Assembly: GCF_001282685.1 (NCBI RefSeq)
Contig: NZ_LN875035.1
Span: forward strand, 2,732,411-2,796,410
Length of the DNA: 64,000 nucleotides
Direction of reading: 5' to 3'
Origin: Niameybacter massiliensis
GTDB lineage: Bacteria; Bacillota; Clostridia; Lachnospirales; Cellulosilyticaceae
Shown here: piece after piece, positions 57,517 through 64,000 of the stretch
How positions within the stretch are numbered: the first letter of the stretch is position 1
Layout: each line of letters starts with the position of its first letter
The notes under the pieces: generated by a model
The model's input: the letters and a program-made list of their open reading frames with translations, nothing else
Database searches by the model: none
Told to the model about the DNA's origin: nothing
Translations under genes and position numbers: made by a program

Positions 57517-59310
57517 TCAATTTTCTTCAATGCCAAGTCTATTATACTGAATCATCCATAAGTTATTGAGTGTTATTTTTTCTTGTTCTGTTAAGTCTTC
57601 TAAAGTTTTAATCTGCCCTTTTCCATCAATAACAAAATGCTCTCCATAAGCCTTTAATATCTTACTCGTATCTAAAAGGTAGTTCATATAGGCATCTTTA
57701 TGATAACCAATATAATCTAATACTTGACCCCCTAAATACGTTGCATCAATGGTTCCAAAATCCTTCTGAGGTAAATTATAATTATTCCATATTACAAAAG
57801 GTGTTTGATAAAGTTTTACACAGTCTTCCTTATCAAAGTTCCCTTCTATAAAATGACTATCTTTATATAGTTCATATTGTTCATCTAAGGCTGGTAAATG
57901 ATCACCGTACATAACAATAACCGTTGGTTCATCTACTTGACTAAAATAATCTATAAGCTGCTTCAATGCCTTATCTGAATCCTTTATGCTATTTACATAA
58001 CTGGTTAAACTATTTAGCTGTGTATCTGATAAATTAGGATGGGATACCGTAATATTATTCGCTGTATAGGTATCACTATAAGGCATATGGTTTTGCATGG
58101 TTACAACATGATAAAACAAAGGATTATTATCTTTATGCTCATATAGATCTATAATTTTGTCTACTAAAGCTTCATCCGAGATATAGCCCCTTGCTAACTT
58201 AGGATTTTCAAAATCCTCACTTGCAATAAACTGGTCAAGCCCTAAGTTTGGATAAGCTTCATCACGTGAAAAGAACTTCTTCTCATATCCATGTAAAGCA
58301 ACTGTCTTATAGCCTTCTGCCTTAAGTAACTTTGCCATACTTTGAGTATCTTCATGTACAAACTTACTATATGCAATATTGCTTGGGTCCGTAAAATATA
58401 CAGATTCTCCTGTAAGAACCTCGTACTCTGTTTGACTCGTACGCCCACCATATATAGAAGTAGCAATACTTCCTTTTGCAAAGCTATTTTGATAATCTTT
58501 AAAGTTACTTAAAGGATTCTCTGAAAAACTTACTTCTTCTAGCTTTGTTACATCAAAGAACGATTCATTCATAATCATAATAATATTAGGTTTAACTTTC
58601 ATTTCTTCTTCTGTACCCATTTGATAAGGTGCCAGCAGTCTTTGCACCTCTTCTTCACTGTAACCTTCTGGCTTCTCTAGCATAAGTTCCATAATTTCTT
58701 GAGTAAAGCCAACTATAAACCCATTTTCATTATACTGCTCATTTACTGTAAGATCTGAGGAATGAACGCTGATGTCCTTCTCACTAGGACACACTTTAAC
58801 GCCTACTATTGCTGTTGTAAAAAATAAAAGAGCACAAAGTATTGTTCCAACAAAGCGATAACCTTTTTTTAACTCAATCCATTTACATTTAAATGCACTA
58901 ATAATGATAGTGATAGACAAAAGTACGCCTATTACAACATTTCGCTCTATTCGTATATTCATCTCTTTACTAATACTCGCAGCTTCCCCTGCAAGTGCTA
59001 AATCTGCCGGTACTAAATATTCTCCACTAATGACAAACTTATAAAAAGAGATGATACATAGTGTCATATAGATTCCACCTACAATCAATACACTAGTTCC
59101 TATCTTATTAAACATTATGGAAAATATCATAAGTAAACTAAAAATTAAAATCCAATTTATAATAAAGCTTTTAGGATAGTCACATACCCACTTAAAAAGC
59201 CCAAAGAAATTCTGCCTGAGTAGTGCTTCCCCACAAAATAAAATAAGAAAACTAAATAGAATCATCCATCCTGAACTTATATAAAATTCTTTTTTTAAAT
59301 CCCTTTTCAT
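57517..59310 (-). CDS. LtaS-like sulfatase-family phosphoglycerol transferase
   Basis: The 597-residue membrane enzyme has five N-terminal membrane segments (about 1-185) and an extracellular sulfatase fold (about 235-560). The metal site Glu lies in IMNESFFDV, the catalytic Thr in GGRTSQTEYEVLTG, and YGDHLPAL is the C-terminal metal motif. LtaS polymerises glycerol phosphate for lipoteichoic acid. Clostridial relatives may modify other envelope glycans, so the product is not certain. It lies 15 bases after a 264-residue gene of unknown function. Confidence 0.87.
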   Translation of the reverse strand: MKRDLKKEFYISSGWMILFSFLILFCGEALLRQNFFGLFKWVCDYPKSFIINWILIFSLLMIFSIMFNKIGTSVLIVGGIYMTLCIISFYKFVISGEYLVPADLALAGEAASISKEMNIRIERNVVIGVLLSITIIISAFKCKWIELKKGYRFVGTILCALLFFTTAIVGVKVCPSEKDISVHSSDLTVNEQYNENGFIVGFTQEIMELMLEKPEGYSEEEVQRLLAPYQMGTEEEMKVKPNIIMIMNESFFDVTKLEEVSFSENPLSNFKDYQNSFAKGSIATSIYGGRTSQTEYEVLTGESVYFTDPSNIAYSKFVHEDTQSMAKLLKAEGYKTVALHGYEKKFFSRDEAYPNLGLDQFIASEDFENPKLARGYISDEALVDKIIDLYEHKDNNPLFYHVVTMQNHMPYSDTYTANNITVSHPNLSDTQLNSLTSYVNSIKDSDKALKQLIDYFSQVDEPTVIVMYGDHLPALDEQYELYKDSHFIEGNFDKEDCVKLYQTPFVIWNNYNLPQKDFGTIDATYLGGQVLDYIGYHKDAYMNYLLDTSKILKAYGEHFVIDGKGQIKTLEDLTEQEKITLNNLWMIQYNRLGIEEN

Positions 59311-60260: not shown

Positions 60261-60662
60261 ATGTCTTCCACTTATGAGGAAGTATGTACCCTTCTTTCTA
60301 ATAGGGAATTTAAAAAAGCGGAATCTTGGCTCATTGGTCATCCTATTAAAGATGATAAATGGCATTTTTTATATAGTAAAGTATTAATGCAAAAAGCATG
60401 GTTTGACTCAGCTAAAAGTCATTTAGAAAAAGCTATTGCACTTAATCCTTCTAATGAAGGTTATAAAAAGCAACTTGCTAGCTTTATGGCTAGACCTGGT
60501 CGTTATAGTGATGACTACTATAATGCTAGACGCTATAGAAGACGTAGCGGATGCTGTTGTTGCTGTTGTGACGATGATTGTTGTCACTTTAGTTGTCTTG
60601 ATCTTATCTGCCTAGACTCTTGTTGTGAATGTATGGGTGGCGATTTAATCGAATGTATTTAA
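60261..60662 (+). CDS. TPR protein with poly-Cys tail
   Basis: The 133-residue product has one to two TPR-like helical hairpins (about 28-75, WHFLYSKVLMQKAWFDSAKS) and then a basic YNARRYRRR linker. The tail has 14 cysteines among its last 36 residues, including six in a row and the motif CCECMGGDLIEC. I chose the ATG at 60261, with GAGGTG. A GTG nine bases upstream lies in that ribosome site. Such a tail suggests metal binding, lipid or disulfide attachment, or assembly with the next protein. No signal peptide is present. Confidence 0.7.
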   Translation: MSSTYEEVCTLLSNREFKKAESWLIGHPIKDDKWHFLYSKVLMQKAWFDSAKSHLEKAIALNPSNEGYKKQLASFMARPGRYSDDYYNARRYRRRSGCCCCCCDDDCCHFSCLDLICLDSCCECMGGDLIECI

Positions 60663-60674
60663 AGGGGGCTTCTT

Positions 60675-61571
60675 ATGTTTGGTTATGTTACACCCTTAAA
60701 AGATGAACTTAAAGTACGTGAATTTGAAGCCTTTAAAGCCTATTATTGTGGTCTATGTTCTCATATTAAGCAAAACTTTGGTCAACTTCCACGTATGGTT
60801 CTTAATTACGACCTCGTTGCACTGGCTCTTCTTTTAGATGGATTAAGTCCAAATAAAGCTTACGTACAAAAACGTTCTTGTATGGTACATCCTGTCAAGA
60901 GCAAACCTATGATTGTTAATAATGAAGCTTTAGACTACGCAGCAAGTATGAATGTATCCTTAGCATACTATAAACTTCTAGATGATGTAGAAGACGAACG
61001 CAATCTTAAAAGTGAAGCCTTTGCTTCACTTTTAAAACCCTACAGTTCTAAGTTTAGCCCTGATGTAGTCAAAGTTAATCACTTAATTGAACGTGAATTA
61101 AAAAATTTACATGTTCTTGAAAAAAATAAGGATTTTGATTCTATTGATGAAATCAGCCATCCTTCTAGCTTGATCGTGGCTAATATTTTAAAACACTATC
61201 CTTATTCTTTTGAAAATGATAGCCCTGAACTTCGAGAACAGCTTTTTGATTTTGGGTATGCCCTCGGAAAGTGGATTTATGTTATTGATGCATTAGATGA
61301 TTTAGAAAAGGATATGAAAACTGGGCAATTTAATCCTATTGTTATTCTTTATAATCATGAAGATTTAAGCTATGAAACTTTAGTTAAAAAAATTCGTGAA
61401 CCTATTAGTTTTACACTTTTAAACTGTGGCTATAACTGTAGCCATCTTTTAAAAGCATTACCACTCAAACGTCATCGTGTACTACTTCATAATATTATTA
61501 ATTTAGGCATGATGGATAAATATAATAAAATCATTTCTCCTTGTGCCCATCATTGTAAGGGAGGTAAATAG
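60675..61571 (+). CDS. DUF5685 family protein with two Asp-rich motifs
   Basis: The 298-residue all-helical protein begins MFGYVTPLKDELKVREFEAF. It carries YYCGLCSH near residue 24 and two Asp-rich motifs, KLLDDVEDERN (about 105) and IDALDDLEKDMKTGQFNP (about 210). The pair has the spacing and context of the DDxxD motifs of isoprenoid synthases, squalene/phytoene type included. Conserved Cys at the N-terminus and a terminal CAHHCKGGK may bind metal. It starts 12 bases after the Cys-tail gene with an AAAGGGGG ribosome site. DUF5685 has no established function; the enzyme idea is my inference. Confidence 0.78.
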   Translation: MFGYVTPLKDELKVREFEAFKAYYCGLCSHIKQNFGQLPRMVLNYDLVALALLLDGLSPNKAYVQKRSCMVHPVKSKPMIVNNEALDYAASMNVSLAYYKLLDDVEDERNLKSEAFASLLKPYSSKFSPDVVKVNHLIERELKNLHVLEKNKDFDSIDEISHPSSLIVANILKHYPYSFENDSPELREQLFDFGYALGKWIYVIDALDDLEKDMKTGQFNPIVILYNHEDLSYETLVKKIREPISFTLLNCGYNCSHLLKALPLKRHRVLLHNIINLGMMDKYNKIISPCAHHCKGGK

Positions 61572-62114
61572 ATGTCTACAAAGCAACTCGTAAGTGGTAG
61601 TATTTTAACTGCACTTACTATTATTATCTTGTATTTAACTTTACTCATTCCAACAAATACACTGACTTTGCTTACATTAGCATCTATTACTGTACCTATT
61701 GCACTTATTCGAGAAAATGTAAAGACTTCCTTAATGGTCTATATAACCTCTAGCTTATTAGGGGTTATTCTTTTACCACTTAACATTAGTTTACTTTATA
61801 TCTTATTCTTTGGCTGTTACGGAATCATTAAATATTTTATTGAAAAACTAAATCGTATTCCTCTGGAATGGTTACTAAAACTTATTTTTTTCAATATAAT
61901 GTTTACTCTCGCCTATTTTTTATTTGATAACTTAATAACCCCTGGTGCTTTTGCTGGACTGATTAACTTAATACATCAGTTATTTCCTGGTTTACAACTT
62001 CCACCTACTGTTATTATTTTTGTTTTAGCTCAAATTGGTTTTATTATTTTCGATTATGCATTTACATTACTTATTGATTTTTATTATACTTACTGTGAAC
62101 AACATATAAAGTAA
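61572..62114 (+). CDS. Integral membrane protein, possibly ECF S-component-like
   Basis: The 180-residue product has about six hydrophobic segments in the layout of substrate-binding S-components of ECF transporters (ALTIIILYLTLLIPTN, ITVPIALIRENVKTSLMVY, VILLPLNISLLYILFFG). It begins at the base after the DUF5685 stop codon, with GGGAGG inside the preceding gene, so translation is coupled. No A or T component lies in the window; shared energising modules are common. The S-component assignment is tentative. Confidence 0.6.
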   Translation: MSTKQLVSGSILTALTIIILYLTLLIPTNTLTLLTLASITVPIALIRENVKTSLMVYITSSLLGVILLPLNISLLYILFFGCYGIIKYFIEKLNRIPLEWLLKLIFFNIMFTLAYFLFDNLITPGAFAGLINLIHQLFPGLQLPPTVIIFVLAQIGFIIFDYAFTLLIDFYYTYCEQHIK

Positions 62115-62118
62115 TATT

Positions 62119-62180
62119 ATACTCTCTGTATTTGTAACTTCTTTTCTTTTATAGAATAGACTAAATACAGAGAGTATTTC
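62119..62180 (+). terminator. Inverted repeat after the membrane-protein gene
   Basis: Arms at 62119-62133 and 62163-62177 (ATACTCTCTGTATTT) pair perfectly over 15 bases with a 29-base loop, followed by a T-rich tail. It could act as a partial terminator before the DUF4430 gene. Confidence 0.5.
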
Positions 62181-62201
62181 TTTTGTTAAAGGATGATGAC
62201 T

Positions 62202-62660
62202 ATGAATAATTTACTTCCGTTAGCAGCACTAAGCTTGTTTTATTTAAATCATCAAAAAGCATCTTATAGACAATCTGACTCAGATACAATGCCAATTACT
62301 TTCTCTGTACTCGGACCAAGTGCTGCTACAATTTTACTACCTCCTACTCCAGAAGATGTTACTATTGGTGATTCCGTTCTTCAAGCCTCAATAGAAGTAT
62401 TTACTAATCAAAACATCCCCTATGTATTAGGTGGAAAAAATAATAACGCTTATATTACAAGTATTAATAATATCACTCAAAACGATTATGGTAGCTCTAG
62501 TCGTTGGTTTTATAAAGTAAATGGTACCTTTTCATCTCTCCCTCCTACTGATTACACACTTAAAAGTGGAGATATTGTTGAATGGGTCTATACAACCAAT
62601 GATGGCATAGATATTGGCGTACCTTTTAAAAACACTGCAGGAAAAAATAATACACCTTAA
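62202..62660 (+). CDS. DUF4430 domain protein
   Basis: The 152-residue product has a short hydrophobic N-terminus (NLLPLAALSLFYL) and then a DUF4430 domain (about 55-142). The pattern GDSVLQASIEVF...YITSINNITQNDYGSSSRWFYKVNG...GDIVEWVYT is typical. The fold is shared with the C-terminal domain of transcobalamin. In Firmicutes such proteins often accompany ECF-type uptake genes, as the neighbour here may be. The ATG at 62202 has AAAGGATG. No clear lipobox or sortase motif is seen, so attachment is by the N-terminal helix if at all. Confidence 0.8.
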   Translation: MNNLLPLAALSLFYLNHQKASYRQSDSDTMPITFSVLGPSAATILLPPTPEDVTIGDSVLQASIEVFTNQNIPYVLGGKNNNAYITSINNITQNDYGSSSRWFYKVNGTFSSLPPTDYTLKSGDIVEWVYTTNDGIDIGVPFKNTAGKNNTP

Positions 62661-63044: not shown

Positions 63045-64000
63045 CTATTCAATTGTAATAATTTTACTACTACTATTCCAATCAACTTTGGCTCCTAATT
63101 TTTCACTAATAAAGCGAATGGGTACCATTGTTGTTCCATTAACCATTTGCGGTGCCTCAAGTAAAGTTTCAGTCTTCCCATTAACCATAGCCTTTTTGCT
63201 ATCTATAGTTAAAACCATCATATTATTATCTTGTTGAATAATAATACTTCTACTTTCACTTTCCCATTCTACCTCTGCACCTAAGTTTTCACTAATAATA
63301 CGAAGTGGTACAAGTGTTGTCCCATTTTGAATAAATGGTGCTACTGGTGGCTTAACTTGTTTCCCCTTAATAATTAGTTTGATTGTTCCATCACTTACTG
63401 TTTGATCATTTGAATTAGGTGGAATAATTACTTCTTGATCCTCCTCTTCAACTACTTCATTATCTCCTAGTATACGAACATAATTAGAACTTACAAAACC
63501 TACTTGTCCATTTGTAAGTCCTACTTGATACCATCCATTTGCCTCTGCAAAAATAGTTACTTTTGTCCCTTTATTCAATTTGCCAATGCTACTATAAGTA
63601 GTTCCTGGTCCTTCTCTAAAGTTAAGACTATCTTCTGTAACAACGCCCATTTTCCCTACTAATTCTGGATTAGAAGTATCACCTATTTGCCCACTATCTA
63701 CCTGGTCATCCTTGATCTCATCATCACTATCATCTACCCAGGAGCCTTTATAGTAAGTTTGTAATGCTGTTGAGACACCTTTCCTATTATTCATTAAATC
63801 TTTCATACTGAAATAAATACTACCTTCAATCTGAGGGTATTTTTCATTTTCTTTTAACTGAGTAATCATTTCTTCTGCTACAGTATCTTTGTAGATACCT
63901 TGCCCTATGTAAAGTTTTACCTTTGTTCCTTTAACTTCATTTGACCACCACTCTACAAGTGTCTTGTAGTTAGCTGTTTGATGTGTTGTCTCCCAATAAA
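63045..64000 (-). CDS. Surface glycosidase-like protein with SH3 and stalk domains (5' end missing)
   Basis: The frame stays open to the window edge, so the N-terminus lies outside; about 317 residues are visible. The first visible part (LVEWWSNEVKGTKVKLYIGQGIYKD, then IEGSIYFSMKDLMNNR) matches the end of family-10-like hydrolase barrels of the YngK/DUF187 group. It is followed by an acidic linker, a bacterial SH3 domain (SLNFREGPGTTYSSIGKL) and a stalk domain with two repeats (NGTTLVPLRIISENLGAEVEW and NGTTMVPIRFISEKLGAKVDW). It probably binds or cuts wall polymers. An internal ATG at 63869 is not the start, because coding similarity continues upstream. Confidence 0.8.
   Translation of the reverse strand, partial: YWETTHQTANYKTLVEWWSNEVKGTKVKLYIGQGIYKDTVAEEMITQLKENEKYPQIEGSIYFSMKDLMNNRKGVSTALQTYYKGSWVDDSDDEIKDDQVDSGQIGDTSNPELVGKMGVVTEDSLNFREGPGTTYSSIGKLNKGTKVTIFAEANGWYQVGLTNGQVGFVSSNYVRILGDNEVVEEEDQEVIIPPNSNDQTVSDGTIKLIIKGKQVKPPVAPFIQNGTTLVPLRIISENLGAEVEWESESRSIIIQQDNNMMVLTIDSKKAMVNGKTETLLEAPQMVNGTTMVPIRFISEKLGAKVDWNSSSKIITIE

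Follow-up and report, generated by a model that had tools for sequence, protein, structure and literature searches.

Class I isoprenoid synthases bind Mg2+ and help to ionise prenyl diphosphates by means of two Asp motifs, which in the isoprenyl synthases are placed at helix ends. Squalene/phytoene synthases have a DxxxD first motif and a second motif with a spacing of 0, +4, +8. The eukaryotic cysteine string protein carries a string of Cys residues. An enzyme of the isoprenyl synthase fold, ComQ, prenylates a peptide near its C-terminus (excerpt of PMC5331326), and the trans-isoprenyl diphosphate synthase (trans-IDS)-like peptide prenyltransferases have a common Gln that directly precedes the second motif (excerpt of PMC13290415). 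The yeast Hsp40 Ydj1 is a prenylated protein (excerpt of PMC9927470), so that J proteins with a prenyl group are known from eukaryotes. Excerpts of PMC8669142 and PMC12412981 deal with the action of farnesyltransferase inhibitors on bacteria. Here we analysed a stretch of 64,000 nucleotides from Niameybacter massiliensis (the window), in which a gene for a DUF5685 protein is preceded by a gene for a tetratricopeptide repeat (TPR) protein with a poly-Cys tail and followed by a gene for a polytopic membrane protein. Our preferred reading, held with a little less than even confidence, is that the DUF5685 protein uses a prenyl diphosphate to modify cysteines of the tail, which would tether a TPR scaffold or an Hsp70 co-chaperone to the membrane.

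DUF5685 appears in a list of superfamilies (excerpt of PMC9403866); beyond this list the literature searched names DUF5685 nowhere, and PF18937 is not named in it. Among the titles and abstract openings listed from that literature, which leaves out most subscription journals, no bacterial J/Cys-tail or Cys-prenylation system like that of DUF5685 appeared. The window protein matched PF18937 over residues 1-285 with 315.7 bits against a cut-off of 26.7 (Pfam, E 3.4e-94). A structure model was calculated with AlphaFold2 from an alignment of 71 sequences (A2), comprising the window protein and 70 of the 80 DUF5685 loci from named genomes, and reached a mean predicted local distance difference test (pLDDT) of 94.0 and a predicted template modelling score of 0.91. 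VIA-align 2, run on the top 1000 Foldseek matches, gave 4jxy as the best match (Z 19.1, root mean square deviation (rmsd) 3.3, 249 residues aligned). The best 50 PDB entries all belonged to the isoprenoid synthase superfamily (Z 19.1-16.3, 213-260 residues aligned) and consisted of polyprenyl, geranylgeranyl diphosphate and farnesyl diphosphate synthases and their relatives, including the prenyltransferase MoeN5. These Z scores exceed the level of about 13 under which VIA-align warns about helical bundles. The best 50 of 455 Foldseek matches in the PDB consisted of isoprenyl synthases and the prenyltransferase Ord1; the best E value was 1.1e-3, and no match lay at or below 0.001. Squalene/phytoene synthases were present neither in these 50 nor in the best 50 of VIA-align. 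The comparisons point to a predicted trans-IDS fold of the class I superfamily.

Conservation of the acidic residues is consistent with this prediction. The window protein carries the motifs LDDVEDE (D103, D107) and YVIDALDDLEKD (D205, D209, D213). All 71 sequences of A2 share C25, C28, C69, D103, E149, D158, G198, Y202, D205, A206, D209, N220 and N273; D107 and D46 are found in 70 of them each and H72 in 57, and position 213 is Asp in 61 and Asn in 10. Twelve distant members, nine from the window's phylum and three from Actinomycetota, all retain C25, C28, C69, D103, E149, G198, D205, D209, D213 and N220, and D107 is kept in 11 and replaced by Glu in one. D158, K/R199, Y202, A206 and N273 vary among them. 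Both Asp motifs are conserved, also in another phylum, and lie at the C-ends of two helices of the AlphaFold2 model. With these results, several points of the preliminary description of this DNA, made from the sequence alone, held: open reading frames (ORFs) and Pfam confirmed a DUF5685 protein with two Asp-rich motifs behind a poly-Cys TPR gene with 14 Cys in 36 residues, the proposed isoprenoid-synthase-like character agrees with the AlphaFold2, Foldseek and VIA-align check, and the Asp motifs and the CGLC pair, whose invariance was to be examined, are conserved (D103, D205, D209, C25 and C28 in 71/71, D107 in 70/71).

The predicted fold, the two Asp motifs at helix ends and a local profile alignment of the second motif are shared with the trans-isoprenyl diphosphate synthases of PF00348. 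In contrast to their DDxx(xx)D and DDxxD motifs, DUF5685 has DxxxD and DAxxDxxxD/N, it has extra invariant Cys, and the GGKxxRP site for isopentenyl diphosphate (IPP) and the other invariant basic residues of PF00348 have no counterpart among its invariant positions except K/R199. As these basic residues are lacking, DUF5685 is predicted to belong to the fold superfamily without being a canonical chain-elongating synthase; on this prediction the enzyme is a new branch of a known fold. Its DxxxD first motif and the 0, +4, +8 spacing of the second are like those of squalene/phytoene synthases, and the latter spacing is similar to that of the metal triads in terpene and squalene/phytoene synthases. 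Like ComQ-ComX and the trans-IDS-like peptide prenyltransferases, an enzyme of this predicted fold is encoded together with a small protein, in which the modified (there) or candidate (here) residue is near the C-terminus. Unlike the ComQ type, the DUF5685 tails are Cys-rich and come with a co-chaperone and a membrane protein, and the position of the shared Gln is taken by Tyr202 in all A2 sequences and in nine of the distant members, with His in the other three.

The window tail holds 14 Cys in the last 36 residues of a 133-residue protein, whose weak matches to TPR_2 and TPR_8 (E 8e-4 and 2e-3) are under the Pfam cut-offs. Across the loci, the usual partner is a J-domain and TPR protein with a Cys-rich C-terminal tail. 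Partners were defined as genes on the same strand within 1.5 kb whose products carry the J motif HPD or have 8 or more Cys among their last 45 residues, and such a J or Cys-tail partner adjoins DUF5685 in 158 of 176 loci (a redundant set). J partners were chosen regardless of Cys, the one with more Cys being taken where there were several J candidates, and 14 J-less partners were selected on Cys content. Of the 146 distinct partners, 132 contain HPD, and none has fewer than 4 Cys among its last 36 residues (range 4 to 15). Their C-termini end in Cys in 95 cases and in CC in 79, and Trp occurs within the last 26 residues in 64; the window tail has none. A single J partner was scanned with Pfam and matched DnaJ (E 2.7e-18) and, weakly, TPR. 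J-less partners were observed in the named Epulopiscium records (L083, L085, L086), in L017/L025/L040 and in L161-L163, and in L039 a J gene sits between the TPR-polyCys gene and DUF5685. The window's own genome encodes two J proteins, neither of which adjoins the operon.

A canonical tail consensus, xCxxCxxLWCxDxCCECxGGDLIxCC, was derived from a second alignment (A3), whose rows were chosen by the pattern CxCxGGD; 97 of 158 partners passed, yielding 80 distinct tails, of which 46 were aligned, the window tail (L001) among them. The CxCxGGD columns are thus invariant by selection, and only the other conserved columns are informative. Other tails contain Cys among hydrophobic residues in different registers. 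The A3 profile, of which it is a row, found the window tail as the single match in its own genome (E 5.6e-9). These tails recall eukaryotic J proteins with lipid-modifiable C-terminal Cys such as cysteine string protein and Ydj1. Unlike there, the bacterial tails are at the extreme C-terminus, and the homology seen concerns the J domain; J domain and Cys string are combined in one protein in relatives and not in the window, where the partner has TPR only. A short protein with a zinc-ribbon-like CPxC...CxxC end adjoins DUF5685 upstream in L032, L044 and L071 and downstream in L045, L052 and L170.

DUF5685 was detected in 211 of 391 sampled genomes of the window's class, with one copy in most, and in one of 14 control genomes (Thermotoga maritima). 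Within the window's family, 16 of 24 genomes have DUF5685, and in 14 of these 16 a TPR-polyCys gene, J-less as in the window, lies directly upstream, which indicates that the pairing is more than chance. In the two exceptions, G690 and G705, no tail was found within the stretch examined. The canonical tail profile matched in 135 of the 391 genomes, and 134 of these also have DUF5685 (tail only 1, DUF5685 only 77, neither 179; Fisher test odds ratio 311, with relatedness ignored). The preliminary description had proposed to test whether the poly-Cys gene is conserved as a neighbour; the Cys-tail gene is a conserved partner, as seen both in the 158 of 176 loci with an adjacent partner and in the 134 of 135 tail genomes that have DUF5685. 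The sole tail-only genome (G099, 65% complete) has J-tail and third-gene-type membrane genes side by side. The tail gene of G146 is on a different contig from DUF5685 and adjoins a third-gene-type membrane protein, and in G037 tail and DUF5685 share one 3.1-Mb contig about 1.5 Mb apart. Among the 18 of 176 loci without an adjacent partner, the tail is fused in L164, is encoded 4-8 kb away in the same cluster in L166-L169, and is found elsewhere in the same genome or on another contig for L019, L022, L026, L031, L046, L060 and L070; for L049/L111 just a relative, G037, has a tail elsewhere, and for L055, L088, L096 and L178 no tail partner was found.

Fusions tie the two parts together directly. 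A Cys-rich tail is fused to the end of DUF5685 in all four Actinomycetota proteins found (Nonomuraea, two Nocardia, Tsukamurella), whose records come from a plasmid collection and include two of megabase size, and likewise in L164 from the window's phylum. The fused proteins are annotated merely as 'DUF5685 family protein'. That the association reflects chance or lineage without joint function is extremely improbable: the Fisher test ignores relatedness, which would favour such an explanation, but fusions and differing arrangements occur in several lineages, and the existence of fusions already makes chance unlikely. It is also very improbable that DUF5685 modifies the tail by other chemistry, for example as a peptide-modifying enzyme whose modified Cys peptide is released. 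Small Cys-rich C-terminal segments beside a conserved enzyme would fit this idea, yet inspection by eye found no recurring protease or exporter among the neighbourhoods listed, and the wide distribution (211/391 genomes, mostly one copy) is unlike that of peptide-product clusters.

The viral contigs searched contained no DUF5685 relative. BFVD gave weak matches, the best of which was a phage trans-prenyltransferase (E 0.025). Two unannotated faecal phage records, MT835850.1 and MT835652.1, showed weak, near full-length DUF5685-like tblastn matches with 18-21% identity (E 2e-6 to 6e-6).

The protein encoded by the third gene was modelled with a pLDDT of 95.5. The top 8 VIA-align rows were S components of energy-coupling factor (ECF) transporters (Z 10.7-7.0), followed by an unrelated ninth row with Z 6.1; the resemblance was closest to TmRibU (Z 10.7, rmsd 3.7, 149 aligned) and included ThiT (Z 7.8). 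All these scores are below about 13, where VIA-align warns that helical bundles may share their arrangement only, and Foldseek was weak (best E 1.1). No ECF module was seen in the operon, and no search aimed at one was made. A membrane protein of the third-gene type, judged by size, place and hydropathy, is present in 116 of 176 loci; 116 of 117 such sequences matched a profile, which is circular as it was built from the sequences themselves. A Pfam scan of 58 of these proteins assigned DUF2232 to only 4, not including that of the window. DUF2232-like membrane proteins also occur in L166, L167 and L168 (three distant versions scored E 5e-9, 2e-7 and 2e-4, the last under the cut-off). The likeness to the ECF S components RibU and ThiT, with its Z of 10.7 and weak Foldseek E value, thus supports but does not prove that the third protein is S-component-like at the fold level.

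The neighbourhoods of distant members provide a link to isoprenoids and chaperones. Polyprenyl synthetase genes are located near DUF5685 in five of the nine distant loci of the window's phylum (L161-L169), with PF00348 E values of 2.9e-49 in L164, 2e-42 in L166, 1.9e-39 in L169, 2.3e-19 in L167, where the match is split over two ORFs, and 1.8e-37 in L222, an extension of L168. All five keep the first motif DD(L/Y)xD, and have NDxNN in place of the canonical second motif DDxxD. ComQ likewise keeps its first motif, and of its second motif only the second Asp remains, a pseudo-SARM (excerpt of PMC5331326), which the NDxNN motif resembles. Judging from these motifs, the NDxNN polyprenyl synthetases of L164, L166, L167, L169 and L222 may form a second ComQ-like prenyltransferase family. 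Hsp70 is encoded in three of the five polyprenyl synthetase clusters (L166 and L222 by Pfam, L169 by similarity) and GrpE in L222 and in L225, an extension of L169; Hsp70-like genes are also found near DUF5685 in L050, L065, L122 and L152. Small proteins with Cys-rich ends, e.g. DACYQGVCLGLLLQAICRGGCK, are present in the clusters of L167, L222, L224 and L225. The Hsp70/polyprenyl synthetase clusters further contain proteins that look alike by eye and have no Pfam match over the cut-off (L166:1541-2248, L167:1972-2550, L222:5257-6147). As a possible source of the donor, two canonical polyprenyl synthetases are encoded in the window's own genome. In L209, a locus with J-tail and membrane genes and no DUF5685 beside them, PF00348 matched a canonical-looking polyprenyl synthetase about 2.8 kb downstream. 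In L221 (NZ_AP023421.1 157565-168245), DUF5685 and a J-domain gene are neighbours of cdaA, CdaR and a gene of the RseC family; ispD and ispF lie roughly 4 kb upstream. In L042, L064 and L216 the operon lies downstream of what we take to be a pgsA-like gene and upstream of a presumed mutS2-like gene.

The predicted fold, the conserved Asp motifs with their triad-like 0, +4, +8 spacing and the polyprenyl synthetase neighbours of distant members would also suit an isoprenoid-synthase-fold enzyme acting on a small molecule by chain synthesis, prenyl transfer or cyclisation, for which the S-like membrane protein might be the substrate carrier. Here, the tail would be a docking, redox or metal module that ties the enzyme to Hsp70 and the membrane rather than its substrate. 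We consider this somewhat unlikely. The tail persists in partners without a J part (L161-L163 and the window) and is fused to DUF5685 in Actinomycetota, so that it suits a substrate better than an adaptor, and no recurring accessory biosynthetic genes were apparent by eye among the neighbourhoods listed.

We return to prenylation of the tail. Fold, motifs, partnership, fusions and the Hsp70 and polyprenyl synthetase neighbours of distant members were computed; from them we infer a prenyl diphosphate donor, a Cys acceptor (S-prenylation), membrane anchoring and a role for the third protein. DUF5685 would be a divergent enzyme that has the class I isoprenoid synthase fold and depends on metal. 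Its two Asp motifs would most likely bind Mg2+ together with the diphosphate group of a prenyl diphosphate. The acceptor would most likely be a thiol in the accompanying Cys-rich tail, which in the window's phylum is part of a separately encoded TPR or J-TPR protein and in Actinomycetota part of DUF5685 itself. Cys is favoured as acceptor because the Gln position is occupied by Tyr or His and the tails offer Cys, and not regularly Trp. Once prenylated, the Hsp70 co-chaperone or the TPR scaffold would be tethered to the membrane; there, the S-component-like protein might be the dock or handle the lipid substrate. More tentatively, DUF5685 may be a bacterial cysteine S-prenyltransferase of C-terminal Cys strings on Hsp70 co-chaperones or on itself, giving a membrane-anchored chaperone platform convergent with the prenylated Hsp40s and cysteine string proteins of eukaryotes.

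A number of observations weigh against S-prenylation of the tail. All characterised trans-IDS-like peptide prenyltransferases target Trp, according to an excerpt of PMC13290415. The Pfam scan of DUF5685 gave no PF00348 match at E up to 10, a PF00348 profile built here did not find the DUF5685 ORFs at E 1e-3, and hhalign against 19 PF00348 proteins remained without significance (probability 2%, E 0.024); in favour, its sole aligned stretch placed LGKWIYLIDA on IGKxFQIxDD in the region of the PF00348 second motif. As the sequence search of the PDB (E up to 10) and of NCBIfam was also without match, sequence searches alone do not reveal the fold. Few basic residues are available for diphosphate binding: K/R199 is the only always-basic position in A2, and it is basic in 11 of the 12 distant members and Glu in one. 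The window partner showed no J domain in the Pfam scan, only TPR, and 77 of the 211 DUF5685 genomes lack a canonical tail by profile, some of which have other Cys-rich tails. When 225 loci were scanned with a PF00348 profile, no further polyprenyl synthetase turned up beside DUF5685 in the stretches examined, window type included; the isoprenoid link accordingly holds for the distant members only and not for window-type operons. Finally, the conserved CxxC and C site (C25, C28, C69) could indicate a metal role, and the fused actinobacterial tails, rich in Cys, Gly and Asp, are metallothionein-like in look.

The last two points lead to the main rival, a metal- or redox-binding tail. In this case, the tail would bind Zn, Cu or Fe-S or serve in redox reactions, and DUF5685 would be a metal-handling or regulatory protein that keeps only the helical fold. 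The 4 to 15 Cys that the partners carry among their last 36 residues, the CECxGGD core conserved in canonical tails (whose rows were partly chosen on it), the Gly/Asp/Cys tails of Actinomycetota and the three invariant Cys of DUF5685 are in agreement with such a function. Nevertheless, we regard it as unlikely, given that acidic residues which look like a catalytic set are retained across phyla, that number and register of the tail Cys vary widely, that Cys is favoured at the very end (95/146 ending in C, 79/146 in CC) and that it does not account for the polyprenyl synthetase neighbours of distant members.

The features of the locus are compiled in Table 1. The intergenic gaps are 12, 0 and 78 nucleotides. 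Between the third and fourth genes lies a perfect 15-nucleotide inverted repeat with arms that are 100% complementary and 29 nucleotides apart, followed on its 3′ side by a T-rich stretch. The repeat was missed by a stricter terminator scan; consensus scans for promoters (15 found, 13.3 expected) and terminators (2 found, 1.2 expected) stayed near the level of shuffled sequence and were not used as evidence. Since repeat and T-rich stretch separate the third gene from the fourth, the DUF4430 gene is probably outside the operon. A DUF4430-like ORF is absent from the other 177 loci searched, many of which span just 3-4 kb. The preliminary description had regarded both an S-component-like membrane protein and the DUF4430 protein as coupled members. 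The former stands at the level of the fold, by the top 8 VIA-align rows, and is short of proof, while DUF4430 was dropped on account of the intervening terminator-like repeat and the lack of a counterpart elsewhere. Further away, positions 57517-59310 on the minus strand encode a protein that has a sulfatase domain (PF00884, E 1.4e-45) and a hydrophobic N-terminal part, presumably of the kind found in lipoteichoic-acid synthases. Positions 63045-63998 on the minus strand, cut by the window edge, encode what we take to be an SH3-like stretch and copper amine oxidase N-terminal-like domain repeats.

Table 1. Features of the DUF5685 locus (positions in the 64,000-nucleotide window, position 1 being its first letter).
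Feature	Position	Strand	Basis or remark
TPR protein with poly-Cys C-terminal tail	60261..60662	+	ORF, 133 residues; lacks the J domain of the usual J-TPR-Cys partner
Cys-rich tail, last 36 residues, ending CLDLICLDSCCECMGGDLIECI	60552..60659	+	match to tail profile A3, E 5.6e-9
DUF5685 protein, 298 residues	60675..61571	+	PF18937, E 3.4e-94; predicted trans-isoprenyl-synthase fold
C25-G-L-C28 pair	60747..60758	+	both Cys in 71/71 of A2 and 12/12 distant members
C69 of DUF5685	60879..60881	+	71/71 in A2, 12/12 distant members
First Asp motif D103xxxD107	60981..60995	+	C-end of predicted helix 84-108
Second Asp motif D205AxxD209xxxD213	61287..61313	+	C-end of predicted helix 184-208 and just past
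N220 of (Y/F)N motif, after second Asp motif	61332..61334	+	71/71 in A2, 12/12 distant members
S-component-like polytopic membrane protein, 180 residues (third gene)	61572..62114	+	AlphaFold2 and VIA-align
Terminator-like inverted repeat closing the three-gene unit	62119..62177	+	15-nucleotide arms 62119-62133 / 62163-62177
DUF4430 protein	62193..62660	+	Pfam, E 1.3e-13

To our knowledge, no known system combines this predicted fold with Hsp70 partners, a Cys tail and an S-like membrane protein. The J domain and Hsp70 link, the fused tails of Actinomycetota and the polyprenyl synthetase neighbours of distant members only became visible beyond the window. With a predicted fold, an acidic site, a Cys-tail partner and a link to Hsp70, DUF5685 turns from an unknown gene into a testable enzyme. 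If the tail cysteines are prenylated, bacteria would have a new way of lipidating proteins, and the trans-IDS-like prenyltransferases, of which the characterised ones are all said to target Trp, would gain a Cys-directed member. About one in two sampled genomes of the window's class would have such an enzyme.

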